Source: Astropecten irregularis | Taxonomy: Eukaryota > Echinodermata > Asteroidea > Paxillosida > Astropectinidae | Length of the DNA: 64,000 nt | Direction of reading: 5' to 3' | Assembly: GCA_963971285.1 (NCBI GenBank) | Contig: OZ020254.1 | Coordinates: forward strand, 1,364,001-1,428,000 | Shown here: one piece after another, positions 9,969 to 51,600 of the stretch | How the letters are laid out: every line of letters begins with the position of its first letter | Numbering within the stretch: position 1 is the stretch's first letter | Notes under the pieces: model-generated | Database searches by the model: none | What the model saw: the letters and a program-made list of their open reading frames with translations, nothing else | Told to the model about the DNA's origin: nothing | Position numbers and translations under genes: made by a program

Positions 9969-11412
9969 CTAACACTTCTCCAGGTAGGTTGAAGGAGCCC
10001 ACCCTTCCTGGCCGTTGATGCAGACCAGCCACCAACCGCTTTCATTTTCTTCCAAGACCTCTACCTCAGCCCCTTCCCTGAAACTCAGCCCGTCATCATC
10101 CGAATTGTCAAAATCCGCTGTTGTGACGTAGGAAGGCTTTGTTTTGACAGGACCTCTCGAGGCACTAGGAGGGTTTAAGGCTTGGAACTTATTCTTCAGG
10201 TCGTTGACCTGGGTGTTGCTGCTGCTGCTGGAGAGCCGATTGACAGCTGGACTGCCATTGGTATCAAAGTTCGGCTTGCTATTGCGGTTAACCGGCGGCG
10301 GTCTTCCCTGGCCGACGCCGTTGCCTGCTGGTTTCAGCTTAGCGTGAGCATTCTTCAAAATGTCGGTGCCTCCACCAGACTGGGGCGGGGATGATTTATG
10401 TTTTGCCTGCAGTACATGCTTCAAAGCAGGAGCAACTGGCAGTGGTCTCCCCTGGTTGCCACCTGGCACGGGAACCGGTCTGAAAGCGCTGACGTGGTCA
10501 CTACCCCCGAGACCCGCGGGTTTGGGTACCGGCCGCGGGGCACCAGAACTGCCGAGGTGAGCATCGGGGGTTTTCCTCGCAGCGGGTGCCGGGGGTCGAG
10601 CGGAGCGAGGCGCGTTAGACTCCCCTGTCTCCTCATCCAGAGTTTCTGGTCTAAGCGGCCGCGGTCTGGCTCCTGCCACTGTTTCCTCCCTAGCTTCAAT
10701 GAATGTGGACGGTGCCCAGCCCTCGCGGTCACCTATCTTGACCAGCCACCAACCTGTGTCATTCTCTTGGATAACCTGCATTATGTGACAAAAAAACAAA
10801 TGTTGCACCATCATTTCAGGAAGTAAGCCACTTTGCTGATGCGCACATATGTGAACAATGATAATTGTTTTTATAAATGGACATGGTAATGTTCATTCAC
10901 TCAGCTTGGCATGAATGCTCATCCCCACAAATAATAATAACCGCTTTTATGTGGCGCAAATCACAATCAATGATGTCTCTATGTGCATATTACTATTATA
11001 CTCTGGTCATGCGATCATTGGGCTACATTGAGTACATTCCTGAAACAATCTCCACTCCCTGGGGAGTATACAGCCCCAGCTACTTTAAGCGCACAATGAC
11101 TAATCAAGCACACAAAGCCATCTCTACCCTCACAATTCAAGTACCTATTTACTCCTGGGTGAAGAGGAGCAATATGTGACAAAGCATCTTGCCCAAGGGA
11201 CCACACGCACTTACAGAAGAGATTACATGCTGTCAACGCAAACCTACCTTGAAACGCAATGCATTAAAGTATTTACTTACCTGCACTTTCTGACCACTTT
11301 GAAAGCTGATGCTATCGCCAGCATTATCAGAAAAATCGGCCACAGTGAAATGCTCTACAACGGTCTTCTTGACCGGTTTGGGCTTACGAGTGGCACCAGT
11401 CCTAACGGTCCT
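9969..11412 (-). CDS. SH3PXD2: SH3-3, proline-rich linker and C-terminal SH3-4 of SH3PXD2
   Basis: Exon 11412-11281 begins with a basic linker (KPKPVKK) and the first half of SH3-3 (HFTVADFSDNAGDSISF). The last exon starts VIQENDTGWWLVKIGDREGW and completes it. About 180 residues of Pro/Ser/Asn-rich linker follow, with candidate SH3 ligands such as PRPVPKPAG and GRPPPVNRN. The final SH3-4 has TADFDNSDDDG, ESGWWLV and EGWAPSTYLEKC at the extreme C terminus. An internal Pro-rich ligand plus several SH3 domains allows the self-binding known for p47phox-type organisers; that is inference here. Confidence 0.92.
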
Positions 11413-26400: not shown

Positions 26401-29400
26401 AACAAGTCCTACGTCATATTACACCCAACTTACGTTGTGCAAATTGTCCGAAAATCCGGGTAACTATAGCTGTTGATACATGTATAAAGGACGTATTCTA
26501 TAAATAGCTCGAGCGCGGAGCCCTATTGTCTCCAAAGGCTGCTCTCTACAAGCCTTGTAACACTAAATAAACCCTGACATTGTAACAGAGTATATAGAAA
26601 CACCACCCCAGAACAAGTTGACCCTAAAGGTTCCCCATGGGGGTATTCTCTGAGAACTCTACCAACAAAGGCAGCCAAATGAAGACCAGTGTGGAGTTGT
26701 ACTTTCAATGTTATTTATCGGGTGACCTACCTAGTTGTTTGTTTAAATATGTAATGATCTAATACTGCAAACTGCTCATCAGATAAAATAATGACCTGAA
26801 ATATATAAAATTCTCGGAGTTAATAGAAGGGCCTGACGTTTTGAGGATATATCTCAAAGGTGACATTTTTCAAGTGGTTTGTTTACTTTATTCATTTATT
26901 TATTTTACTTTTTTTGGGGGGGGGAAGGGAGTGGGTTCCTTACTTGAAAGTCAAAGAAGTTGCTGTAGCGCCTGTAGACAACATTTACAGAACCATCGGA
27001 CCATGATACATGGATGACATACACCTGTTAAAATGAAAAGGTAAAATGCAAATAATTGATCATTATTATCTCTCAGCAAAGAGCAACGCACCACAGAAAT
27101 AGTGATATCACAAATGAGGCTGCTAGAAAACAAGTGAATGTTAACATTATTTATGTAGGACAAGAACAACAAATCATGACCTCGAATAGTTAGTGGGGAA
27201 TCATAACATCTAAAATATCTGACTTAAAAACAATGGTCAGATTGTTTTGTAAATTAAAAATGACTACAAAGGTTTGAAAGTACGTTTACCATGGTATTCA
27301 GTTAATTCATGGCTGCAGACCTATTTTTGTATATATTTTTGCCAGCATCGTCATTCTTCTGATTGGCCAATTCCCAACATGTCATACCAGCCTTCTTTCT
27401 CTATAAATGTTGCTGGCAGCACCGTTTACTACATTATTGCCGGCATGACATAATAAAAATCGCCAAATCAGAATAAGGGAACATTTGGCAAAATAGCATT
27501 TGCAGGAAGAACGCTGGTGCTAACTTCATTTGATAGAATCTGGGGATAAAACATTGGTAATTTGTGGACAAGTGCTGTGGTTCCCGGAACTAAAAAGGAA
27601 ATAAAGGACAAGTGGTTTCTAAAACTAATAGAAAAGGAAAGCAAGTTTTTATAGCTTCTTCTGCTCCCAAACGATATTCTTGACTTCAAATATTCCCGAG
27701 TCCTTAAAACCCTAGATTCAAGAAATTTCTCTGATATTTTAGTGAAAAGGTACAATGGCGATTGTGGGTTAACGGGATCCCAAAATACATTGATTTTTTT
27801 GGCTCTGAACTAACTTCTACTCCTCAAAAATGATACTTTTGACTTTCAGCAAATGTTCCTGGGTCCTTAAAAGCCTACATTGAAGAAATTTGTTAAACAT
27901 TTCAGGGTTAAAATTCAATTTTCCTACGCACTTCTTGTAAACTTTAAAACAGACCGTCTGATCGCGTGAGGCCATTTTGTCTGATCTGGTTAGTCTAGTG
28001 CCCAGACCCAACAGACCAAGAGTCCTCAAAATGTCAGAGTGGAAACCAGACTATTCTCGTCTGCGGCCGTCCGTGCGGCGGTGAAATGTTACATTCTTGG
28101 TTACCGTTTTTACCCCATAATTTCCCTCAAAAATCAAAGCCCTGCCCTCTTTCCAAAAATTTAAGCTTGGTAATATAGAGGAGGAGACCAACAAAGTATA
28201 TGTAGGTATAGTTGCGATGATCGTAACCCTAGGTCTGACCAGGGACTGGGACCTTAGGGTTACGACAAAACTTGTTCAAAAAAATGGGTACGACCTTTTT
28301 GGCCAACTCCTGAAGTACGTTTCCACTTAGTTTTCCACTTTCCAAAATCCAAACACAAAATCTGACTACATGGATCTGATCGGTACTTATCAATGAGTCA
28401 TATAAAACCACTTTGAATATCGAAAGATCATTTTCTGCAGAAAAAATGACCAAAAACTTACCGAAGGTGTCGAGATTCCCTCCGTTTGCCGTCAGTCGGC
28501 CATTTTGAATAGTGCGCAGTGCCATCTCGACCAAATTACGTCATGCGCAATGCCGTTTTGGCTGTTCCACCTTTCAAACTCAAACTCGCAGCCCTATGGA
28601 GGGCTCGTATCACGTGCGTTGTACAGTGCTATACACGGCATATCGCATAGTGCGTGACCGTGTCCGTGTAATAAATCACAGGTTATTGAATCAGTGACCA
28701 GACCCGTGCGCCGAAACTGCCGAATTAAGTTTTCCACTGCTCTTCTGATATGACAGGTGAAGAAAAACGTATACGGCGTGATTTGTTTCCGACAACCAAC
28801 ACAGGCCGACATCGAACACATGCGAAATCTAAATACTAATAAAAATATTCTGATCGACCGTCCTGCAAAGTACCGTAAATCGTCGGCTGATCAGCTTATA
28901 AATCTTACTTGAATTTCAATTTCAGTAATCAATATTTTGTTTAATTGGCCAAGTAGAAACACTCTTTTCATAATTATACTGAATCTAAAAAAATTATCGT
29001 GAAATCCTTCCGAAACCGACCGACGATCGCATTAAAAAATTAAGACGTACAAACATTGCCCACACCGCAGAGAAAGACAGCCTGGTATCCGCGTGCGTGA
29101 TAGCCACAGTTTCAAAGCAAACGTGCACCAGCGAAAGTCTCAACCAGTACGTTACACACGTGCCGTGTGCTTGAAATGAAGTGTATATTGTATGGTGGCT
29201 TTAAAGGGACATCGCAAACAAATATTGACGCCAATATTGACGCCAATATTCACGACTTTTACCCCAAGTCGCAAATATTGACGCCAATATTGACGCCAAT
29301 ATTTACGACTTGGCCTCAAGTCGCAAATATTGACGTCAATATTGACGCCAATATTCACGACTTGGCCTCAAGTCGTTAATATTGACGCCAATATTGACGC

Positions 29401-32400
29401 CAATATTCACGACTTGGGCCCCAAAGTCGCAAATATTTACGCCAATATTGACGCCAATATTCACGACTTTTACCCCAAGTCGTAAATATTGACGCCAATA
29501 TTGACGACAATATTCACGACAGCCTCCAAGTCGTAAATATTGACGCCAATATTGACGCCAATATTCACGACTTGGGCCCCAAGTCGCAAATATTTACGCC
29601 AATATTGACGCCAATATTCACGACTTGGGCCCCAAGTCGCAAATATTTACGCCAATATTGACGCCAATATTCACGACTTAGCCCAAGTCGTAAACCCACT
29701 CAGGCGTGAATTTTTTTTACAGCAACTTGGGGCGTCCGTTTCCTACACCGTCTGGCACCCAGACCCACCGATCTTATGGGACGAAGTGCAAAAAGTCTTC
29801 TAGAAAATTATTTTTGTGGCCACCACCGAGGGAGGGGCTGAATTTTGCACCAGTTGACCATTAGGACATGCTGATCATATAATTATTTGCTTGTTCCCCT
29901 TGTGCAAAAGTGCCACGTTTGGGAGAAATTCGGCAAAAAAGGTTGAGGGCGAAAACACGGACATATGGGGCGAGTTAGGTTTTTTCGCGTGCACTCTATG
30001 AACATTTCGCCCAAAGTCACTTCACCCCCGTGAATTTCGCCACCAATTTCATAGCGTATCACTATCAGTAAAGTACATTCATGAGTCATCGAGAAGGAAC
30101 GTACGGGTTTCCTTCTCAAAACCCCACTTCTTAATACTTTAGTAGTCTTTTGGCTGTGATTAAAAAATCTGATTATTTTAATGATTGCCTCCCCAGTTTT
30201 GATAATTAACATGATTTGAAGAGTTATTATTGAATAAAGATCGATGAAGATGTTGGAAAACACTGACTTCTTTTCTTGATAATATTTCTGAATTAGTGTG
30301 GCAAGGCAATCTAAAAGATTTGTTTTTTATAATTATTTTTTTTTCATAATAATTATATAGACACAAAAAATTCAAGCATAGAATAGTCACCAAAATCTTT
30401 ATTTCTCATCATGTAACACATAAAATGTGCATGTATTTATTTTTTTCTTTCAGGAACCGAGTACACTAACATTATACCTTAAAAATACCACTATTAACAA
30501 ACTATCAAGCCTATACTTTACAGTGGCAATGAAGGTAACTGTCCTACTTAGATGCCCTAGATATTTGTATGTGTAGAATGTCAGACAAGTCGACCGGTGG
30601 GACAACTCGACTTGAGACAGGTCGACCGGTGAGACAGGTCGACCGTTGAGACAGGTTGACCGTTGAGACAGGTCGACCGGTGAGATAGGCCGAGACAGGT
30701 CGACCGGTGAGACAGGTCGACCGTTGAGACAGGTCGACCGGTAAGACAGGTCGACCGGTAAGACAGGTCAACCGGTAAGACAGGTCGACCGGTAAGACAG
30801 GTCGACCGGTGAGATATATACCGTGTATCGAAGCATTTTGAGCCCACGGGAAGCCGTGAAACGCTTTGATACACGATATATATCTCACCGGTCGACCTGT
30901 CTCACCGGTCGACCTGTCTCGGCCTATCTCACCGGTCGACCTGTCTCAACGGTCGACCTGTCTCACCGGTCGACCTGTCTCAACGGTCGACCTGTCTCAC
31001 CGGTCGACCTATCTCAAGTCGAGTTGTCCCACCGGTCGACTTGTCTGACCCCCCTGTGTTCACTAATATGACAGAATTTTTCAACCTGCTAAGTAAGGGG
31101 TGACCGAGCATAACTAATGTGATTGAAACACAAGTTCTATATACATGTACATGACATGTACATGACATGTACTCAAGCATAGTAAATAAACATGTTCAAC
31201 GTTGACATAATTAATGGTAGAAAATATGTACGTACAGACGGTGCAAGGTCTCATACATCCCACTTTCATAAAATTGGGTTTAAGATGTCAAAATAATCCC
31301 CCTTACTTAACAATCAAACCAAGTATTGTACTGATTTCTGCTAAATAATTATTGTCCCATTAATAAGTACATGACAACAATATACAGTAAAAATAAAACC
31401 TTTTTGAGTATGATGGCATAATTCATGTTGTGTATGTTTCAGTGTACAATAATACAAACATGGTAAACTAAACTTCCAAGGTAGATGTGCATTATATGTG
31501 CACAGAGCTGAAGGGTGTAATTATTCCCTGTGATGAGACTGGGAAGTCTTTTAACATTTTCATTCAAAAATTTATATTAGTTTTAAACCGTACCATTTTA
31601 TGTAGCTTCAAAATAATATGCACCAAAGCCATACTTGTCAGTAAGCTGTAAAACTGCTATCTGCCAATGAGTGATTGTGGCATAACTTAAATTATAAAGG
31701 CATCATTTAAAGTTCCATATACTCAGTGAACTGAAATACAATATTTCGATACACACATCAAATAAATAAATGTTCAATTTTGATAAATCAGAAAAGCCTG
31801 ATAAATCTGCAGCTTTTCAAAAACTTTGAAAGTACTGTATTTATTTGAGTTTTCTACAAGCATCCCAATAACAACACTTTGAGACAGGCATGTTTTGCAG
31901 TATTAAAAACAATCCCATTCTGCAGACTGCTAAGAAAAGATGGGCTGCAACTAATTATGGAGGCATAGTTGAAAGTTTTATCTGGAGAAGTATCACAAAA
32001 AAGCTGCAGATACACAAACCCATTTAAGTTTACATGTACATTGATGAAACATACATAAATAAGACTTGAAGCTATGCATGGTGGAAGTACTAAAAGAAGG
32101 TAGGTTTGCGGTGACACCATGTAATCTATTATGCGAGAGTGTTTGTTTCTGAGAACTTGAACCGGTGGAAGTTATCTCGACGTTTAGAACAGTGTGCTCT
32201 GTTCGTCCTCAGCAGAGTGACTGAGGATAAACAGAGCACACAGTTTCAAGATAATACCATCGGTTCTTCTCAGAACCTCACACTCTCACAGAAAATATTA
32301 CATGTGTCACCGCAAACCTACCTTCTTTCAAACATGCATGTTATGTAAACCCAAACCATTACTTGTTATTGAGCATGTTAAGGTACATGTACACTACAGT

Positions 32401-35400
32401 TTGTGAATACATGTACTTTCATGCAAATGGTGTGCGTATTTTACGTAAATGACAGAAAATGAATGTCATTGCTCATTGCTGGTATATTACTACATACAGG
32501 ACAAAAATCTAATGCAACACAGCACGTCAAATTCTAAGCGTAATTTGTTCTTGTACTCCCTCGATTCGTTGGTGGACTGTCCTCATCACTGCACGTGCCT
32601 CGTGTCATAATCAGCCACTGCATGAGAAGTCGGTGCTATGAGTGGAGAAAAAGAAAAGAAAAGAAAAGAAAAGTGGGTCTCGATAAGCTGTTAACATGGA
32701 TTGCAAATATTGATGTAGATGGAGTGCGGAAGGACAAAGCTTACAATATTCCAATTCAGGTAATAAATTGACCCATAGCCTATCATTTTTGTAATTTGAC
32801 ATTCATATGCGAACCCAGCTTTTCATACAGGGCCTGAAATTGAAATTGACATTAATAAGACATAATGTAGTTAAGTTCTATTCCAAAATAAAAATATTTT
32901 AGCAAGCATTTGACAAATGGTTGTCCATATCAGGAAACCTTGAACACGATGATATTAATAAACCACCTGGCACCTGTATATGCCACACACTCAAACAACA
33001 CCCTCACTGAGGCAAAAACAAGCAGAACGCTAAACCACAGCTGCCTGGTGTAAAAAAGTGAACATGACATCAGCATACCAGTAGTGCTGCACATTATGCA
33101 AGGGTTATGCAAGGGGTCTAAACACAGGTTTACACCTTGGCGGCCATCTTAGATTTTGATCACAACTTCAAAACGAGGCACTATCACGCATGTGCACTTT
33201 TCGAAGTGTACACCCGTGTATTGTCAAATATCCCTCTTCCTTGATGAAAACTCACCTACAGCTTGTTGGCACTGTCTTTTTAATTCATAGCGATTACCAC
33301 TCTTCAACACTCCCAATGATTTCAACTCATCATCAGACATAGAGGGAATCATGGAGGAAGTCACCTTTAAGAAAAACATAATCTTTAGTAAACATGCTGA
33401 ACACAAGCCATTGAAAAGGGGAATTGTAGTTAGTACTTTAAATGAGGGGTATAGGAGGTAAAAAACTACATATACTTCACTTAGTTCATCATGGGAACTG
33501 TCACTCGAGTCCAGGACTCGGCCTGAAGTTGCAATTTTGTTGACTTGCACTCGACTTAAGTCGTGAGTTATGTTAGGCAATTGAGACTCTGACTTGACGA
33601 GTATGACTCAAACTCAACACTAAGTGACATTTAAAATGTATTTGCCTTTTAAACAACAATCTTAAAATTTTGTCAATGATTTGACATCATTAAATCATAT
33701 AAACAGTAAACAACTGTAGGATTGCAAATAATAACATTTCAGCATTAATACAAGTAAAGTGCTTACAATGTACATCTCTAAGATAGCAACAGCAGCATTG
33801 TAAACATAACTATGACTTACGAGTACTGTACCTTATTGCACTGATCAAAATGGAACAACCTAAAACATATTGATGGGTTTAAGTAATTCAAGTCGGGGGC
33901 TGGTCATGTCGTCCCCCGCTCTCCCCCAAGCAAGCTCGGCCCCAACAAGAAGTCGCCCCCAACAAAGTCGCCTCCTAACCAGCTGGTTTGAGGGTGAATT
34001 TGTTAGGGGCATCTTTGTTGGGACCAACTTTGTTGGCAGAAACTTTGTTGGGGGTAAGTTTGCTGGGGTGACATGACCAGCATTCTTCAAGACAACATGT
34101 GTGTAAAAACATAGTTTTGGTAGTCCTAAAACTCATCATAATAAGGGGGGGGGGGGGGGGGTGACAGGCGGAATGGAAGTAATGATACTGGGCTGGCTTT
34201 CATAATAATTAAGGTGAGGAATGGGTTCAGTTAGGTGAGGGGCTATTTTTACAAATATGATTATAATCGTCAGTGTACCTGTTGTCGAGGTATCAAGTTT
34301 TTGAGGATTGACCTCCTATCATTGGTAGCGACTCCCAGGCCTGTATCACACAATCAGTTGATTTGTTTTATATATGTACGTGCTCCCCGCAAGCCGAAAC
34401 TACATGTCATCAACAGTTAACTTCTGTATGTGACTTTTTGTCTTGCTTGGAATAATTAATGCTTACGTTACACCCTCGAAAACCGGTACATCGAGGATTG
34501 GGGGCCTAATTTAGTAATATGAATCCCCAGAAGACAACCGCAAGTGGAACAACTCATTTCGGGTCACTTTAATGACAAACATAAATAAAGTAGGCCTAAT
34601 ATTATAAGAAATACAATTATATTTACCCGGTTTTCAGTCTCCATTTTCGCGAGGTGGAGTGGCATGTGTACAGCATAGCATGCATAGAGCTGGTACAACA
34701 CCGCATGCAGTTGGTGATAAAAAGCAATCAGTGCAGGCAACCACGAGCGAGACGGGTGCACCAGACTATTTGATAACCTACCGAGCTACCTAGGTTACTA
34801 AAAAAATCCAAAAATTCACGCCTGAGTGGGTTTGCGACTTGGGGCCCAAGTCGTGAATATTGACGTCAATATTGGCGTCAATATTTACGACTTGGGGTCC
34901 AAGTCGTGAATATTGGCGTCAATATTGGCGTAAATATTTGCGACTTGGAGCCCAAGTCGTGAATATTGGCGTCAATATTGTCGTTAATATTTGCGACTTG
35001 GGGCCCAAGTCGTGAATATTGGCGTCAATATTGTCGTCAATATTTGCGACTTTAGGCCATGTCGTTAATATTGGCGTCAATATTGGCGTCAATATTTACG
35101 ACTTGGGGTAAAAGTCGTGAATATTGGCTTCAATATTGGCGTCAATATTTACGACTTGGGGCCCAAGTCGTAAATATTGGCGTCAATATTGGCGTCAAAA
35201 TTTACGACTTGGAGGCTAAGTCGTGAATATTGGCGTCAATATTGGCGTCAATATTTACGACTTGAGGCCAAGTCGTGAATATTGGCGTCAATATTGACGT
35301 CAATATTTGCGACTTGAGGCCAAGTCGTCAATATTGGCGTCAATATTGGCGTCAATATTTGCGACTTGGGGTAAAAGTCGTGAATATTGGCGTCAATATT

Positions 35401-36700
35401 GACGTCAATATTTGTTTGCGATGTCCCTTTAAAGCCACCATAATATTGCGCTCGGTCGGAAGGCCTACCTTTTTGGATCGCGGCCGGCGTCGCTCCACCG
35501 TTACGGTCGGTGGCTCACGGCCGGCGGCCGGCTCGGTACAGATTTCGCCGTGGGCTTGAAATGTTGCGCTCGGTCGGCACCTTTTTGGATCGCGGCCGGG
35601 TTCGTTACCGTATACGGCTCGGTACAGAACTACAGATTTGCAGTAAGAAATTGTGGTTTTTCCGCGATCCGCAGTGGAATATTCCGGTGATATTTTTACT
35701 AATATGTTCTCACTGTCCTACCGGGTATGATCATTTTTTGTGTAATTGATGACCGGATATATTTTTCAGTCCACAGCGTTAATTCCGACCACTGCGCGAT
35801 CTGTGATGAGGTGGATGATCTTTTATTCTGTTTGATCATGGATTGGGTCGGCACCGAGTAGTGTGACCTGCTAACATATTTTGTCTGTTTGTGAGACCAT
35901 TCATAAAGGAAATCATTTGATAATCTTAGCAATTTCCTTTAGTTCATGATGAAAGATTTGAATTGTCAGCGGCAGCTTGACATGGGCAAACAATGCGGAC
36001 TTAAAAAAACCCTCCTCCATACTGTATACGATATGCGTGTACACGGTATATCATGCACAGCGCACGTGTTATTCTGGGAACACCCTCCATAGGGCTGCGA
36101 GTTTGAGTTTGAAAGGTGGAACAGCCAAAACGGCATTGCGCATGACGTAATTTGGTCGAGATTGCACTGCGCACTATTCAAAATGGCCGACTGACGGCAA
36201 ACGGAGGGAATCTCGACACCTTCGGTAAGTTTTTGGTCATTTTTTCTGCAGAAAATGATCTTTCGATATTCAAAGTGGTTTTATATGACTCATTGATAAG
36301 TACCGATCAGATCCATGTAGTCAGATTTTGTGTTTGGATTTTGGAAAGTGGAAAACTAAGTGGAAACGTACTTCAGGAGTTGGCCAAAAAGGTCGTACCC
36401 ATTTTTTTGAACAAGTTTTGTCGTAACCCTAAGGTCCCAGTCCCTGGTCAGACCTAGGGTTACGATCATCGCAACTAATGTAGGTAGGCCTAAGTTACTT
36501 TTCAAATAGTAGTTTCCTTTATAGTTTTAGGACCCGTTAACCCACAATCCCCGGTACAATTTCCTTGCCTACTTGTTGCTATAGTTTTAGGAACCACTTG
36601 TCCACAATTACCATATTTTTAGACTTACATAATGTTTGGTGGGATATCTCCTTTTCTGAATGTCATCAATCAGAGCATCTTGAACTGTTCGCTTTCCCAT
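9969..36700 (-). CDS. SH3PXD2: SH3PXD2 / Tks adaptor: PX domain plus four SH3 domains (complete, 13 exons, 645 aa)
   Basis: Exons on the minus strand: 36700-36629, 27024-26944, 24810-24735, 23105-23029, 21710-21616, 20397-20375, 19942-19811, 19154-19053, 18843-18726, 17857-17697, 16787-16726, 11412-11281, 10775-9969. All phases agree and the CDS totals 1,938 nt with a TAG stop at 9971-9969. The order is an N-terminal PX domain, then SH3-1, SH3-2, SH3-3, a Pro/Ser-rich linker and SH3-4, which ends the protein. This matches the Tks4/Tks5 family of scaffolds for podosomes and invadopodia and of NADPH-oxidase organisers; family knowledge places it at the cell cortex, bound to phosphoinositides through PX. 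At 645 residues it is shorter than human Tks4 and Tks5, mostly in the linkers. Intron 1 (about 9.6 kb) holds the large Foldback-like element. Four SH3 domains favour SH3PXD2 over NCF1 (p47phox), which has two. Confidence 0.93.
10927..11216 (-). mobile_element. S2 tRNA-derived SINE copy
   Basis: Reverse copy with CTCCCTGGGGAGTATACAGC, GTACCTATTTACTCCTGGGT and GCATCTTGCCCAAGGGACC. In an SH3PXD2 intron. Confidence 0.75.
11655..12235 (-). mobile_element. Decayed LINE fragment (reverse transcriptase 3' end, CR1/L2-like)
   Basis: Three minus-strand frames together show the usual end of a non-LTR reverse transcriptase: NFGVIF, then SFIISRLDYCNSL, RLQKLVTRL, LHWLPIKHHVSFK and SPSYLSDLLTLYQP. Frame changes separate the pieces, so the copy is inactive. 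The motif order (SRLDYCNSLL, LHWLPI, PYLSDLL) is typical of the CR1/L2 group. It lies in the SH3PXD2 intron between exons 11 and 12. Confidence 0.85.
12345..12640 (+). mobile_element. S1 tRNA-derived SINE copy
   Basis: AAATGATCCTTGGGATATAG, CTGCCAAACAAACAAAGATA, GACACCACCAACATAGGG and a TTTGAATCCCGCTCCAGTC B-box region. Confidence 0.7.
12957..13149. mobile_element. Tc1/mariner-type MITE (TA flanks)
   Basis: Ends CAGTCAAACGCAACTATAAC and TATAGTGGCGTTCCACTG with TA outside. The inner TATAACGAACATTC and TTCGCTAAAGCC parts are typical of pogo/Tigger-like MITEs. Confidence 0.8.
13775..13941. mobile_element. Foldback MITE, 167 bp
   Basis: About 60-bp arms: TACGGGCGATTCACAATAGC facing CTGTTGTGAATCGCCCGTA, continuing through GTTGGCCAATCACAATGT. 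Confidence 0.8.
14361..16052. mobile_element. Non-autonomous DNA element, about 1.7 kb, with about 60-bp inverted ends
   Basis: Left end ATATGTGACCCAATGGAGC and right end CTGCATTGGGTCACATAT are inverted; similarity continues through GAGGTAAATCCCCCA into GAGTTAT. No transposase frame is visible. The interior holds a direct duplication (about 15303-15510 and 15569-15800). No target duplication was clear. It lies in an SH3PXD2 intron. Confidence 0.7.
15303..15800 (+). repeat. Diverged tandem duplication, unit about 265 bp
   Basis: Two copies share ACAAAAATTCCCACGCTAAA, GTTTTCTGACATGGTTC and CATTATTCGCACACA-like blocks with many single differences. It lies inside the 14361-16052 element. Confidence 0.75.
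16873..17169. mobile_element. MITE, about 297 bp, TA flanks
   Basis: Ends AAAGGCTGATTCATACTCGC and GCGAGTATAAACTAGCCTTT. If the element starts at AAGGC, TA is duplicated on both sides. In an SH3PXD2 intron. Confidence 0.75.
17549..17682. mobile_element. E-family MITE (GGGTCGATTTCAC ends)
   Basis: Inverted ends ACAATTTCACGAAGCCCTA and GTTTGGTGAAATCGATCC around a centre with GGGCTGCAATGCATCC. It ends 15 bp from the SH3PXD2 exon 17697-17857. Confidence 0.78.
17697..18843 (-). CDS. SH3PXD2: SH3-2 of SH3PXD2 and following linker
   Basis: Exon 18843-18726 carries HYITNSSYKAQQEDEVSFET through GWWMV; exon 17857-17697 completes the fold with YQDKVGWVPATFLQVY. The Ser codon at the junction is made by AG plus C. 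The linker after it (VDVAASAPTQRIGNVMNLSD) continues into the 62-nt exon 16787-16726, which is rich in Pro, Arg and Thr (SKPTPPRRNTVR) and looks unstructured. Confidence 0.9.
17890..18245 (+). repeat. Minisatellite of TTTCACAATCTTCCACAAC units
   Basis: About eight irregular units of roughly 40-50 bp that alternate AACATCTCGAACAAAGCTC and CATACCAAACA segments. In an SH3PXD2 intron. Confidence 0.8.
18246..18725. other. Intron sequence without recognised content
   Basis: Nothing recognised; ordinary intron of SH3PXD2. Confidence 0.6.
19053..19942 (-). CDS. SH3PXD2: SH3-1 of SH3PXD2 (two exons)
   Basis: Exon 19942-19811 gives PYIVIADYKKKQKNEVDLFR (ALYDY-like strand plus RT loop) and ends with a donor inside the codon before WW. 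Exon 19154-19053 gives WWFINSRDNQGWAPATFL, with the conserved WW pair, G-W-A-P and the final F-L. The intron therefore splits SH3-1 just before the WW motif. Reading through the donor instead of splicing would give WCIRF and lose the second Trp, which supports the splice. The acidic tail GDEQEDTIIES leads into SH3-2. Confidence 0.9.
20398..21278. other. Intron sequence without recognised content
   Basis: SH3PXD2 intron. A weak inverted pair (ACACGGCTGTGGCTAGG and AGCCACAGCCAGG) lies at 20626-20710; nothing else. Confidence 0.6.
21279..21510 (-). mobile_element. A-family MITE
   Basis: Body in reverse orientation between GGGGGTTTTCGAAATGGAGG and a degraded TTTTTAAACCCCC end. In an SH3PXD2 intron. 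Confidence 0.8.
21616..36700 (-). CDS. SH3PXD2: PX-domain exons of SH3PXD2 (exons 1-5)
   Basis: Exon 1 starts at an ATG at 36700 (MGKRTVQDALIDDIQKRRYP) and ends in KHY. Exon 2 supplies VYVIHVSWSDGS and the RRYSNFF motif, the basic R-R-Y/F-S patch that contacts phosphoinositide phosphate in PX domains. Exon 3 has KLLSLFPEEGG and IPFLPG. Exon 4 has GRSQVRDVASKRL and NEYCQ. Exon 5 has LLVRLPPKVSES and VLQFF. The order and motifs match the Tks PX fold from first strand to last helix, about residues 4-125. The start is chosen because it is in frame with the PX strand and is followed by a good donor (TAT/GTAAGT). A 23-nt microexon (20397-20375) joins PX to SH3-1. Confidence 0.92.
21806..22265. mobile_element. 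MITE, about 460 bp
   Basis: Ends AAGGTACATTCAGACAGCGT and GCTGTCTGAACGTTCCCTT. The interior is dense in AAAACCGATCGGTTTTA-like short palindromes. Confidence 0.75.
22795..22920 (+). repeat. D-family repeat, two units
   Basis: Two nested units with ATCCT(A/G)GTAGGATC-type cores; followed by TTTTGGCTGATGAGCAG, which other copies share. In an SH3PXD2 intron. Confidence 0.7.
23559..23640 (+). repeat. 18-bp tandem repeat, 4.5 copies
   Basis: ATTCTATGTCAGGTCCAC repeated without change. Confidence 0.92.
23703..23921 (-). mobile_element. B-family MITE
   Basis: Ends GGGTCTTTCGGAAATGGGGC and GGTTTCAAAAAGGCCC; body GGGCTTGAGATACATGGCGA. Confidence 0.82.
24370..24548 (-). mobile_element. C-family MITE, 5' truncated
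   Basis: It has TGTGGCTGTTTTTCACTG, GTTACTGTATCTTTCTTGAT and ACCAAAGTATGA. In an SH3PXD2 intron. Confidence 0.75.
24855..24965 (-). mobile_element. S2 SINE, 3' part
   Basis: TTTTCCCTGGTCATCGGGCC and CTCAATTCCCTGGGTATTAT match the tail of the 57285 copy. Confidence 0.7.
25195..25300 (+). repeat. Purine-rich AAAG/AAAT simple repeat
   Basis: AAATAAAGAAAGAAAGAAAA-type run in an SH3PXD2 intron. Confidence 0.85.
25785..26035 (+). mobile_element. S1 tRNA-derived SINE, best copy
   Basis: The tRNA-like part has an A box (TAGCTTAGTTGGTAGAGTG) at about 25937 and a B box (GGTTTAAATCCCGCT) at about 25985, the Pol III promoter of a tRNA. The head has CCACAAGGGAATTTGACTG. The anticodon arm is degraded, so it is not a working tRNA gene. 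Confidence 0.78.
26355..26529. mobile_element. MITE, about 175 bp
   Basis: Ends ACAATAGGGCTCCGCGCT and AGCGCGGAGCCCTATTGT are perfectly inverted over 18 bp. In an SH3PXD2 intron. Confidence 0.8.
26750..26870 (-). repeat. D-family repeat, reverse, core lost
   Basis: It has CTGCAAACTGCTCATCAG, ATGACCTGAAATAT and GGGCCTGACGTTTTGA; the hairpin core is missing. Confidence 0.65.
28200..28208. repeat. Left 9-bp target site duplication (ATGTAGGTA)
   Basis: Direct repeat matching 36478-36486 exactly, abutting the left end of the Foldback-like element. Confidence 0.88.
28209..28603 (+). repeat. Outer module of left terminal inverted repeat
   Basis: It pairs with 36083-36477 with only isolated mismatches. 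The first about 60 bp contain a second inverted repeat (GTAACCCTAGGTC facing GACCTTAGGGTTAC), so the tip can form its own hairpin. The module carries an outward-facing open frame of 101 codons (28534-28229, minus) that is also present in the right copy. Confidence 0.88.
29184..29712 (+). repeat. Inner tandem array of the left inverted repeat (about 54-bp palindromic units)
   Basis: About nine units. Each opens with AAGTCG and closes with CGACTT, and holds a 12-bp subrepeat (AATATTGACGCC) twice or more. Each unit can therefore fold alone. The array starts after a GGTGGCTTTAAAGGGACATC junction that is also found at the far end of the right array, and stops at ACCCACTCAGGCGTGAATTT. Confidence 0.9.
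30580..31049. repeat. 470-bp foldback made of 17-bp units
   Basis: The left arm repeats ACAGGTCGACCGGTGAG and one-base variants; the right arm is its reverse complement. The ends are GTCAGACAAGTCGACCGG and its complement (CTTGTCTGAC). The centre (about 30817-30884) is itself inverted (TGTATCGAAGC facing GCTTTGATACA). The left arm has more units than the right. It lies inside the 8.3-kb element. No clear target duplication was found, so it may be a nested insertion or a part of the element. Confidence 0.85.
31050..32093. other. AT-rich interior of the Foldback-like element
   Basis: Only a short TACATGTACATGACATGTAC repeat near 31141 was noticed. No coding signal. Confidence 0.6.
32094..32330. 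mobile_element. Foldback MITE inside the 8.3-kb element
   Basis: Ends AGAAGGTAGGTTTGCGGTGA and TCACCGCAAACCTACCTTCT, with an inner CAGAGTGACTGAGGATAAAC palindromic core. 8690-8800 shows a related GGTTTGCGGAAACACCATGT sequence. Confidence 0.78.
32527..34644 (-). CDS. Possible three-exon small gene inside the Foldback-like element
   Basis: Exon 1 (34644-34627) is ATG plus five codons (METENR) with donor CGG/GTAAAT. Exon 2 (33364-33256) begins VTSSMIPSMSDDELKSLGVL and ends ELKRQCQQAV with donor GTAG/GTGAGT. A candidate exon 3 (32588-32527) gives VMRTVHQRIEGVQEQ and stops in frame. Phases (0, then 1) agree, giving about 62 residues. The segment I-P-x-M-S-D-D-E-L-K-x-L-G-V resembles a SAM-type or similar short helical domain (the D-E-L-x-x-L-G pattern); that is a visual match only. 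All exons lie within the 8.3-kb element, so this could be an element-borne gene or a host gene caught in it. Exon 3 is the weakest part. Confidence 0.38.
33900..34081. repeat. Inverted-end repeat with CAACAAAG-rich centre
   Basis: GCTGGTCATGTCGTCCCC faces GGGGTGACATGACCAGC. The middle repeats short CCCCAACAAAGTCG and TTTGTTGGGG blocks. Inside the 8.3-kb element. Confidence 0.7.
34811..35447 (-). repeat. Inner tandem array of the right inverted repeat (about 54-bp palindromic units)
   Basis: Mirror of 29184-29712 with the same inner boundary (TTCACGCCTGAGTGGGTTT) and the same outer junction. It is about 108 bp longer, which is two units. Single units differ by small changes in the spacer between CGACTT and AAGTCG (GGGGCCC, GAGGCC, GGGGTAA). 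Confidence 0.9.
36083..36477 (-). repeat. Outer module of right terminal inverted repeat
   Basis: Mirror of 28209-28603. Its 101-codon open frame (36152-36457, plus) differs from the left copy by one residue near its start (VEI against VEM). The frame includes a donor-like GGTAAGTT near 36222. Similarity to the left end stops sharply at the CCTATGGAGGG point. Confidence 0.88.
36478..36486. repeat. Right 9-bp target site duplication (ATGTAGGTA)
   Basis: Direct repeat matching 28200-28208 exactly, abutting the right end of the Foldback-like element. Confidence 0.88.
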
Positions 36701-38252: not shown

Positions 38253-38326
38253 TAGTTGCGATGATCGTAACCCTTGGACTGGGACCAGTCCCCATGTCAG
38301 ACCAAGGGTTACGATCATCGCAACTG
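38253..38326. mobile_element. 74-bp miniature relative of the Foldback-like element
   Basis: Almost entirely two inverted ends, TAGTTGCGATGATCGTAACC and its complement, with a short centre (GGACTGGGACCAGTCC). Flanking 9-mers AATGCAAAT and AATCCTAAA match at six of nine positions, as an aged 9-bp duplication might. It lies 110 bp before the CARD start codon. Confidence 0.75.
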
Positions 38327-48600: not shown

Positions 48601-51600
48601 CTTAGAAGTTATTTCCTACCAGTGTAGTGATGGCTGTGTGCTTGATTAGTCTCAGTGAGCCTGGAAATCATGTATACTAGCATTAAGAAGGTGAGATTGT
48701 TTTTAAAAGTCCGAAATTTGGCCCAATGACCAGGGATATCTCTGTCAAAGTGCACTACTATTTCCTTCAGAATTACAAAATATGCTACATAAGAAAGTCA
48801 GGTCAAGATGTTCACGGACATTCAAGCCTGAACCAAACTGATGGCTAGGGCTGTTACTAAGGGCAACAGTTCTTCTCTGCCTGCACTGAAGAGTAGGCAG
48901 TGCTCAGAAATACACTGAGCAACAGCCGTAGCCATAGCCATTAGCTCTGATCGGAACTAATATGCAGAGGGTCACTCACCCAAGAAAGCTCGCGTCCAAG
49001 CCCAGCCTCTGGTGGGGTCTCTCAGCATCTGAATCTCGTCGATAACCGCCACCTCATCTGAAACAAAAACAAAACGGGACAAATTACACTAAGAGTAGAC
49101 GATTCACGTCTGTATTTTGACAAACGGACAAAAGGCTCTTCCATAGTCACCAGACATGCTTCACAACTTATACCTCTTTCATGCTAGCGAGATTTCCACC
49201 GGAAATTTGTACCCTTGAACCTTCCTGGGTAAATATCACCATTTTACCAATGAGACACTTGTGTCCCTGGCCTGATTGTAATACTGATACTTACACGGCT
49301 GGCTGACGCTGGTCATCTCGACTGTACAGGCCACGTGATTGGACGGCGTTCCCTCGGGATGAGCAAACCTTCTCTCCTCTCCAGTGACCAGATCGCACAT
49401 AATGCCCTGATGAGAAGACACAAAGAGCGACAATGATTAGAAATTGTGAAATGAAGGCTGAAAAAAATTTCATTTTCATTAAAAGGTGAACAAAGAAAAC
49501 TGCCTTGAGTTGGATTCGAACCTGCAACCTCTGGTATTCCAGGGGCCCCTGGTTCGAATCCCGCTCTGGTAATTTATTCTTTGTTCAGTTTTCAATGACT
49601 TGAATTTAATTGAGTCAAACATACAAAGGCAATTTCTATTTCTTATATCGTAGAGTGCCGGTAAAGTATTCCGGGGGTCCCTGGTTCGAATCCCACTCCA
49701 GTCAATTGTTCTGTGTTCACTTTTCATTAATCACCTACCTTGTCATTAGTCTTCATATGAACCTCACTGGCCAGTAGTTTGAGAGGTCCGCAATAGACAC
49801 CAGACTTTGCCGTGCAGAAGCTCTCCAGAGCATGGTAGGTTTTGCCGCTGTTGGTCGGACCGGCATGGAAGACAATCCGACGCTGGATGGCTCTGGCTTC
49901 TGGGTACCTGAGTTGATAGATTACAAATGAGGAAAAGGAGTTTGATTGTTTGATTAAGGATTATAACAATCTTACTCAATTTTTTCAAGAATAAACTTTA
50001 ATACGAGTAATCAGGCTTAAGTAGGAGAAACAGGTCTGATTCTGTTTGAGGTGGGAGGAAACCCCAGAGTAATATTCTGGGTAAAACCCACAGAATCAGG
50101 CAGGAACTGAAAACCCAATCCATTTGTGGACCGAGCCAGGCTCGAACTCGGGCCACCAGATGCAAAAGGCGAGGAAAGAGCCGCTACGCCAACCTGACTC
50201 CCAAATCAAAATGAATGTTCCTTGTTTAATTTCCTTGAGATGAAACTGACCACTGGGCCGGATCGCTGAGGTCACTGATCTTCCTTAGGTCCTCCATGCA
50301 TTCTAAAGCCGGAAACACCTGCCGGGCGTGCCTCAAGAAATACGGGAAGATATCGTCCACATGACCAGCTCCAGCCAGAATGTCGCTCAGTATGATATGG
50401 AGGTCTGGCTCCAGACTCTCTACCTCTACGATGTACTTGCGGAAGCTCACAAAGGCCTGATGGAACAGATGCTCTGAAAAAAAGAAGACCGTAGACGTTC
50501 AGTCCAGGTATTGTTGAGAATAAAACACAGACTGTGCCAGATTAGATGCCTTGATTCGAACCAGCGACCTCCGGAATACTGTATCGACTCTCTACCAACT
50601 GAGCTATTCAGACCTATGTTGGCAGTGTCCCTAATAGTCAATTATCTTTGGTCGTTTGCCAGACACAAGCCAAAGATAAATGAACCCAGTATTCCAAAGG
50701 TCGCAGCTTCGAATCCCGCTCCAGTCAAATTTTCTTTGTTCACTTTTCAATGACTTAAAATTAATCCAGTCAGTTACCCTAATTGTAAAATAGTGACTTA
50801 ATCTTAAAATCCATTCATGGAATTTCATATTCTAGCAATAACATGGTGCAACTTGATGTGAGGACCGGATCCGGACTCTTTGATCATGATTTCATCGAAA
50901 TGTTGCAAACACTTATTTGGCTTTTCATCCAGCAACCCTAAGACACCATGGCTACACTGATACTAGCCTCATGAATATTCATTCCTCTTACCGTCCAATC
51001 CATTCTCCTCAGCCAATCTCTGGATTTCTTTTCTTCGGTAGAATGAGTTCAAGACTTTCAGCAGCTCAGCTGTAAAAGTTAGAGAAAGATATTCAAGAAT
51101 GCATTATTGCAATTTATGTACTTTTTCCTCTTTGCTACACAACTTTGTTTTTTTTTTTTCCCCTTAGGGAAAAAGGTAGATCCAATATAAACAAAACAAT
51201 ACTATGCACATGCATAACAGACAACTACGAGCGGCTGATAAACATAGATCTTTAAGCATGCGGGTTGATGCAGAAAGTTAATGTTTTTCTAGAAAAGTTG
51301 TGTGGCAATAACACAAAAATGAGAATGCATTCGGCATAACGGAAAATCTGAGTAGAGGTGGGTGCTGCAAGATTTTACCACAATTTCATCAATCAATTGT
51401 TGTTTTGAAAGCCCATCATAGCATTACGGCACCCTGAAAAGTAATACTGATTAGTGATAACGGTGATATTACCATTCTAGGCCTAAGTAGCATCCGGTGT
51501 ATTTGCGATGATCGTAACTCTTGGTCTGACATGGGGAATGGGACCCCATGTCAGACCAAGGGTTACGATCGCAACTACATCCAGTACTGGTAAGTTTAAT

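Follow-up and report, generated by a model that had tools for sequence, protein, structure and literature searches.

The window, a 64,000-nucleotide stretch of the Astropecten irregularis genome, contains on its minus strand what fits an SH3PXD2-like gene. The sequence-only reading had named SH3PXD2 as the host, and this is partly supported: the open reading frame (ORF) at 9972-10892(-) holds SH3 domains, SH3PXD2A is among the 13 PDB matches listed for it (Neutrophil cytosol factor 1, NCF1, being the best), and a PX-type exon lies near 26973(-), which we take to resemble an early SH3PXD2 exon, while no exon 1, which the earlier placement in intron 1 calls for, could be located. A mobile element, here called TE1, lies about 1.2 kb upstream of this PX-type exon; its outer span of 8,269 bp (28209-36477) includes a nested insert, TE2 (Table 1).

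Table 1. Parts of the two nested elements and their positions in the window.
Feature	Position	Strand	Basis or remark
TE1 target-site duplication, left (ATGTAGGTA)	28200..28208		single copy in paralogous empty sites
TE1 left terminal inverted repeat, 395 bp	28209..28603	+	arm comparison
TE1 interior, left part	28604..29190	+	alignment to ~2-kb copies
TE2 target-site duplication, left (ATATTG)	29185..29190		flank reading
TE2, nested 6,252-bp transposon, ends TATGGTGGCTTTAAAGGGACATCGC	29191..35442		ends, duplication, other copies
TE2 left inverted repeat: ~28-bp end, then near-palindromic 53-bp units	29191..29694	+	repeat analysis
Inverted arrays of 17-bp units in TE2 body	30580..31049		alignments of other copies often break here
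Inverted-repeat hairpin in TE2 body	32094..32325		found in many of the copies listed
Possible SAM-like exon, TE2 body	33263..33372 (approximate bounds)	-	SAM_2 E=0.0019, 18.8 bits, Pfam cut-off 20.5
TE2 right inverted repeat with near-palindromic 53-bp units	34831..35442	-	repeat analysis
TE2 target-site duplication, right (ATATTG)	35443..35448		flank reading
TE1 interior, right part	35443..36082	+	alignment to other copies
TE1 right terminal inverted repeat, 395 bp	36083..36477	-	arm comparison
TE1 target-site duplication, right (ATGTAGGTA)	36478..36486		flank reading

TE1 carries the exact terminal sequence TAGTTGCGATGATCGTAACC at both ends and is framed by a perfect 9-bp duplication, ATGTAGGTA, as had been read from the sequence. 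Its terminal inverted repeats align over 395 bp without a gap and are identical at 394 positions, with the sole mismatch at arm position 315, which bears out the earlier description of outer modules free of indels. The repeat analysis reported no tandem array in the TE1 arms; the 53-bp arrays all lie inside TE2. When the insert and one copy of ATATTG are subtracted, the window element measures 2,011 bp, which is precisely the length of two other copies (L013 and L017). The sequence-only reading had recognized no transposase in the window element, and none was found here by ORF listing, comparison of two TE2 ORFs with Pfam, and inspection of frames by eye; the longest ORF with an ATG, GTG, or TTG start among those listed encodes 126 aa. 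TE1 is a non-autonomous element of 2,011 bp.

The exact 20-bp end of TE1 occurs 1,531 times in the 475.7-Mb genome (752 forward and 779 reverse), whereas the reversed control of the same 20 bp occurs 0 times, which excludes chance. We surveyed the duplications of 40 elements, namely, the window copy, 20 regions of best end matches, and 19 others. Perfect 9-bp duplications were present at 26 of the 38 loci with both ends (at L019 by the inner pair). Of the other 12, L026 is compatible with an 8-bp duplication plus one extra terminal base, and the duplication of L071 matches at eight of nine positions. The genome search with the TE1 end, suggested earlier as a way to find further copies, therefore yielded many.

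Among those examined, TE1 copies vary in length between 69 bp and 16.5 kb, which makes the smallest mobile sequence directly testable. The longest one (16,537 bp; L077+L078, C1:4256635-4273171) retains an intact 9-bp duplication, GGTACCAGC. It was considered as an autonomous copy and rejected because its extra DNA consists mainly of 1,494-bp tandem repeats, the units of which are mostly more than 99% identical to each other. Among the copies of about 2 kb (n=13, window included), mean divergence is 0.9% for the arms and 2.3% for the interior, values that may reflect ascertainment, the loci having been selected through their arms. The TE1 family is apparently young.

The window copy of TE1 sits in an abundant repeat (27959-28208 and from 36487). 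Its left flank (250 bp) recurs in at least 39 further copies of 98-99% identity (40 of 1,657 candidates scored). A query made of the joined flanks with one ATGTAGGTA gave 41 listed rows (40 scored of 1,413 candidates), all of which span the junction and reach at least position 186 of the 240 in the query, the best being 100% identical over 190 nt. Thus, the empty site with a single ATGTAGGTA, for which a comparison of individuals had been proposed, is present in paralogs of the flanking repeat.

Analysis of 31 target sites (26 loci with perfect duplications and five mini-elements; not all are independent, as L061 and L072 represent one paralogous site) revealed a symmetric preference outside the duplication, A-K-C-W-n-[N9]-n-W-R-M-T. 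Position -3 is C in 23 of 31 sites (p=8e-11) and C or T in 30, and the mirror position +12 is G or A in 27 of 31 (p=1e-5), the tested positions having been picked after the counts were seen. The window's own site fits this form in part, with T for C in the left half and agreement at two of four positions in the right half.

The shortest TE1 copies, of 69-72 bp, consist of the two ends and fold into a single hairpin, which for L059 has a predicted energy of -31.1 kcal/mol (z -10.8). On C1, eight end pairs spaced 69-71 bp were found among the matches listed, and six of them have perfect duplications. Six further mini-elements, picked by a 30-base sequence and thus blind to size, all measure 69-72 bp, and five of these have perfect duplications, which brings the overall figure to 11 of 14. 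The 30-base sequence is present in 12 of the 14 examined mini-elements and occurs 80 times in the genome over many contigs, a count of occurrences rather than of sized elements. The first 57 bp of the 395-bp arm are the same as the first 57 bp of the other strand of a 69-bp mini-element; thus, each long TE1 end contains a mini-element minus its last 12 bases.

These hairpins could instead be remnants that shrank in place from longer insertions and were not mobilized as such. Long hairpins tend to be lost by deletion during replication, and L061 (70 bp) and L072 (2,342 bp) sit at an identical point in two copies of a single repeat and share their 9-bp duplication, a common position that hints at either shrinkage in place or a hot spot; L022 and L025 hold this repeat with the insertion point empty, a second case of related empty sites for TE1. 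We consider this account unlikely: shrinkage in place could explain one such pair but hardly the uniform length of the six copies selected blind to size, five of them with perfect duplications, nor does it suit the scatter of the 80 occurrences of the 30-base sequence over many contigs. We therefore favor mobilization of the short copies themselves, and the Foldback-like behavior seen in the 69-72-bp hairpins is real. TE2 likewise has very short copies (131-289 bp), and in both families these consist mostly of end sequence and still carry duplications. Thus, hairpin-forming ends are probably enough for mobility in both families, each of which also exists as tiny, largely hairpin-forming copies.

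Two such sequences lie in the window itself. Another mini-element of the TE1 family (~73 bp, 38253-38325) lies to the right of the main element, at a distance of 1.8 kb, and has no clear 9-bp duplication left. A diverged TE1-type mini-element at ~51500-51577 is flanked by CATCCGGTG and CATCCAGTA, which match at seven of nine positions.

It had also been expected that a partner with a MULE-type transposase should exist elsewhere in the genome. A search with the MULE domain gave 33 matches, 30 of which were examined with 1.5 kb on each side. At a single locus, L041, we found a TE1-like end, placed just upstream of the gene and ~1.4 kb from the domain. It is 91% identical to the TE1 end over the outer 58 bp and 67% identical over 237 columns under sensitive settings. 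This end (~237 bp) is a repeated terminus elsewhere, where it forms inverted pairs (C17, 7455241-7457029; C14, 11775659-11778066). The L041 protein has a MULE domain scoring above the cut-off (38.9 bits) and a PHD-like finger scoring below it (22.6 bits, cut-off 24). Its relative L036, which is 54-63% identical to L041 in aligned protein pieces, has a PHD finger above the cut-off (27.7 bits), as does L037 (30.5 bits). Downstream of the L041 gene, 25-bp tandem arrays total ~1.9 kb within a 2.5-kb stretch; the right flank of L041 reads TATTTTTTG. The gene is broken and present as a single incomplete copy, and neither its far end, in the 3 kb beyond, nor a complete autonomous element was seen. 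The expectation of a partner therefore holds in part: a broken MULE gene with a TE1-homologous end is in the genome, and a complete copy was not found. Judging from these homologies, an L041-type element is probably the MULE partner of TE1, and we infer that its transposase would act on TE1.

Four loci (L036, L037, L038, and L040) form a PHD-MULE family with main blocks 92-97% identical, and no TE1-like end was detected in the 3.2-3.3 kb inspected at each. They carry 16-bp tandem units, CCAACTCGTACGCCGA, near one end and are perhaps another minisatellite-ended MULE. A 166-bp stretch of L037 matches the TE1 interior at 70%, which may reflect kinship or an insertion.

Alternatively, TE1 might be a FLYWCH-type (Phantom-like) MULE or a member of another superfamily, with L041 as a mere neighbor. 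FLYWCH-type MULE genes do occur in the genome (L031 and L033), a TE1-like end accompanies only one of the 30 MULE loci examined, and according to the tables of PMC6446971, long inverted ends with 9-bp duplications suit several MULE groups. We regard this as quite improbable, because the TE1-like end shows homology over 237 columns and stands directly before the L041 gene, because this end recurs elsewhere as an inverted terminus in its own right, and because the sequence examined at L031 and L033, 1.5 kb to either side, contains no end like that of TE1. The loci L031-L035 were also considered as TE1 partners and rejected, L031 and L033 being of the FLYWCH type and none of the L031-L035 stretches containing a TE1-like end.

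The assignment of TE1 to a L041-type MULE can be set against known systems. Drosophila FB and FB-NOF elements have long inverted ends and 9-bp duplications, both of which TE1 shares; TE1, however, does not have tandem-array arms. TE2 does have arrays, but its duplication is 6 bp in 10 of 11 copies rather than the 9 bp of FB. The closest likeness to TE1 is found in Rehavkus, a MULE-related group for which PMC6446971 (citing Repbase Reports 2008) gives 9-bp duplications, inverted ends of 26-400 bp, a PHD finger, and a minisatellite that precedes the 3' inverted repeat. TE1 has the same duplication length (26 of 38 loci), and both its 395-bp ends and the ~237-bp terminus of L041 fall within the published range. 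The putative partner L041 combines a MULE-type catalytic domain with a PHD-like finger just under the cut-off, and a minisatellite lies 3' of its transposase gene, in a sequence that does not reach the 3' inverted repeat. TE1 differs in being itself non-autonomous and without a minisatellite. As these features of L041 resemble Rehavkus, TE1 is best read, by architecture and from one incomplete locus, as a Rehavkus-type MULE derivative. The proposal of an independent FB-like family is thus not upheld, the arrays belonging to the inner element with its 6-bp duplication and the outer family being nearest to Rehavkus. PMC6446971 states that very few elements of the group are known and names only arthropods and annelids as hosts. 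TE1 represents an abundant, apparently young non-autonomous family linked to a PHD-MULE (Rehavkus-like) gene.

A further comparison is offered by Tm1, a Mutator/Foldback family of root-knot nematodes described in PMC3169594. As far as that description goes, Tm1 resembles TE1 in its MITE-like forms, mostly 9-bp duplications, and MULE-type transposase, and includes one case of a second inverted-repeat element that is nested and duplicates a different length (7 bp). By the same account, the composite ends of Tm1 contain tandem 13-15-bp repeats, whereas the TE1 arms are not tandem arrays, and Tm1 is reported to have no clear target consensus, while TE1 target sites are symmetric. For very short MITEs, nothing relevant was found in the literature, and we do not claim 69 bp as a record.

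The inner element, TE2, is a separate mobile family. In the window, it measures 6,252 bp (29191-35442), has the inverted ends TATGGTGGCTTTAAAGGGACATCGC, and is flanked on both sides by ATATTG, a 6-bp duplication. Both arms are made up of 53-bp units (arrays at ~29219-29694 and ~34831-35414), which gives TE2 a foldback-like form, and the two consensus units agree with their reverse complements at 42 and 44 of the 53 positions. Thus, the inner arrays of self-palindromic units noticed earlier are present and near-palindromic, but they belong to TE2. The TE2 end occurs at 138 places in the genome (63+75). Among the 100 of these that were listed, 14 facing pairs are spaced 4.3-6.5 kb (window included), eight are spaced 131-2,217 bp, and two are wider (15.2 and 26.5 kb). 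We found a perfect 6-bp duplication in 10 of the 11 TE2 copies with both ends read (window included), while that of the eleventh matches at five of six positions; the sixth base of the duplication is C or G at all 11 sites. The 5.1-kb body of TE2 aligns end to end in a single row at six or more other loci with 91-95% identity and is matched in pieces at further loci (35 candidates scored).

The nesting was evaluated by comparing the window element with 20 regions at or around the best TE1-end matches, a choice that biases identity upward; hits shorter than 60 bp and hits wholly within array stretches were left out of the comparison table. In 13 of the 20 loci, element positions 982 and 7235 are joined with an overlap of exactly 6 bp, five others (L013, L016, L017, L020, and L021) join within some bases of these positions, and at L023 and L025 one end only was read. 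In this table, the middle of the window element outside the arrays had no hit in any of the 20 TE1 regions. The single 8.3-kb Foldback-like transposon proposed at first, with the 2-kb copies as internal-deletion derivatives, is hardly tenable and we rule it out: such deleted forms are known for foldback families and the whole 8.3 kb is framed by ends and a 9-bp duplication, but the middle part is bounded by inverted ends and a 6-bp duplication of its own, its body is found at other sites with other 6-bp duplications, the TE1 loci join at 982/7235, and the extra DNA of the long copies L010, L016, and L077+L078 sits at other places in TE1. The window feature is therefore two nested elements of known style and not one new Foldback family.

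We consider it highly likely that the locus arose by two events, insertion of TE1 into the repeat by a MULE transposase of the Rehavkus kind and later insertion of TE2 into TE1. The non-autonomous 2,011-bp TE1 would have moved first, probably by cut and paste, driven by a transposase that carries a MULE catalytic domain as well as a PHD finger. It would have entered one of the copies of the abundant repeat, near an exon of the SH3PXD2-like gene, with duplication of 9 bp. TE2, from a different family with minisatellite inverted ends, would then have inserted in the middle of TE1, duplicating 6 bp, and would have been moved in trans by another transposase. At the locus, we observed both sets of ends and both duplications, and in the genome, related empty sites for both events and many dispersed copies of TE1 and TE2, mostly with different duplications. 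What had been claimed as a single element is thus replaced by a nested insertion with related empty sites for each event.

No TE2 transposase was found when two TE2 ORFs were compared with Pfam (weak hits only) and three minus-strand frames of the body were inspected by eye; the two scanned ORFs gave no Pfam hit to a hAT transposase. Several known elements share single features with TE2. Tetris, a Drosophila virilis foldback element described in PMC4079207, is similar in its foldback form without a known transposase and, compared by description only, differs in having 8-10-bp duplications rather than 6 bp; as described there, its termini are common to a short element, and its arm tandem repeats gave rise to satellites. 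The 6-bp duplication length is shared with hAT6, as given by a reference title in PMC12730594, and is close to that of Dada (6-7 bp), which PMC3706591 describes as being without terminal inverted repeats and as targeting RNA genes. It is conceivable, although rather improbable, that TE2 represents an undescribed group in which the duplication is strictly 6 bp long with C or G as its last base, the arms are near-palindromic 53-bp minisatellites, and copies as short as 131 bp, composed almost wholly of ends and palindromes, are still mobile. If so, and taken with the 69-72-bp hairpins of TE1, the same genome would have given rise to hairpin-only mini-elements twice, once in each transposon family and independently, perhaps because the mover or the repair machinery handles folded ends.

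Two candidates, one for the TE2 transposase and one for an autonomous TE2, were rejected. The first was a Tnp2-like gene in L098 (C2:394880-398880), beside a diverged fragment of the TE2 body. Its Pfam support is below the cut-off, and inspection by eye placed none of its 70 matches in the genome within the TE2 copies listed; a fragment that is pogo-like by its motifs also adjoins it. The second was an insert of 8.56 kb that interrupts one TE2 copy on C1; a 6-bp overlap had suggested an autonomous TE2, but the ends of the insert are direct LTR-like repeats. This insert (L099+L100, C1:29544714-29553276), of which the ends only were read, appears to be an LTR-type retroelement of ~8.5 kb inside one TE2 copy.
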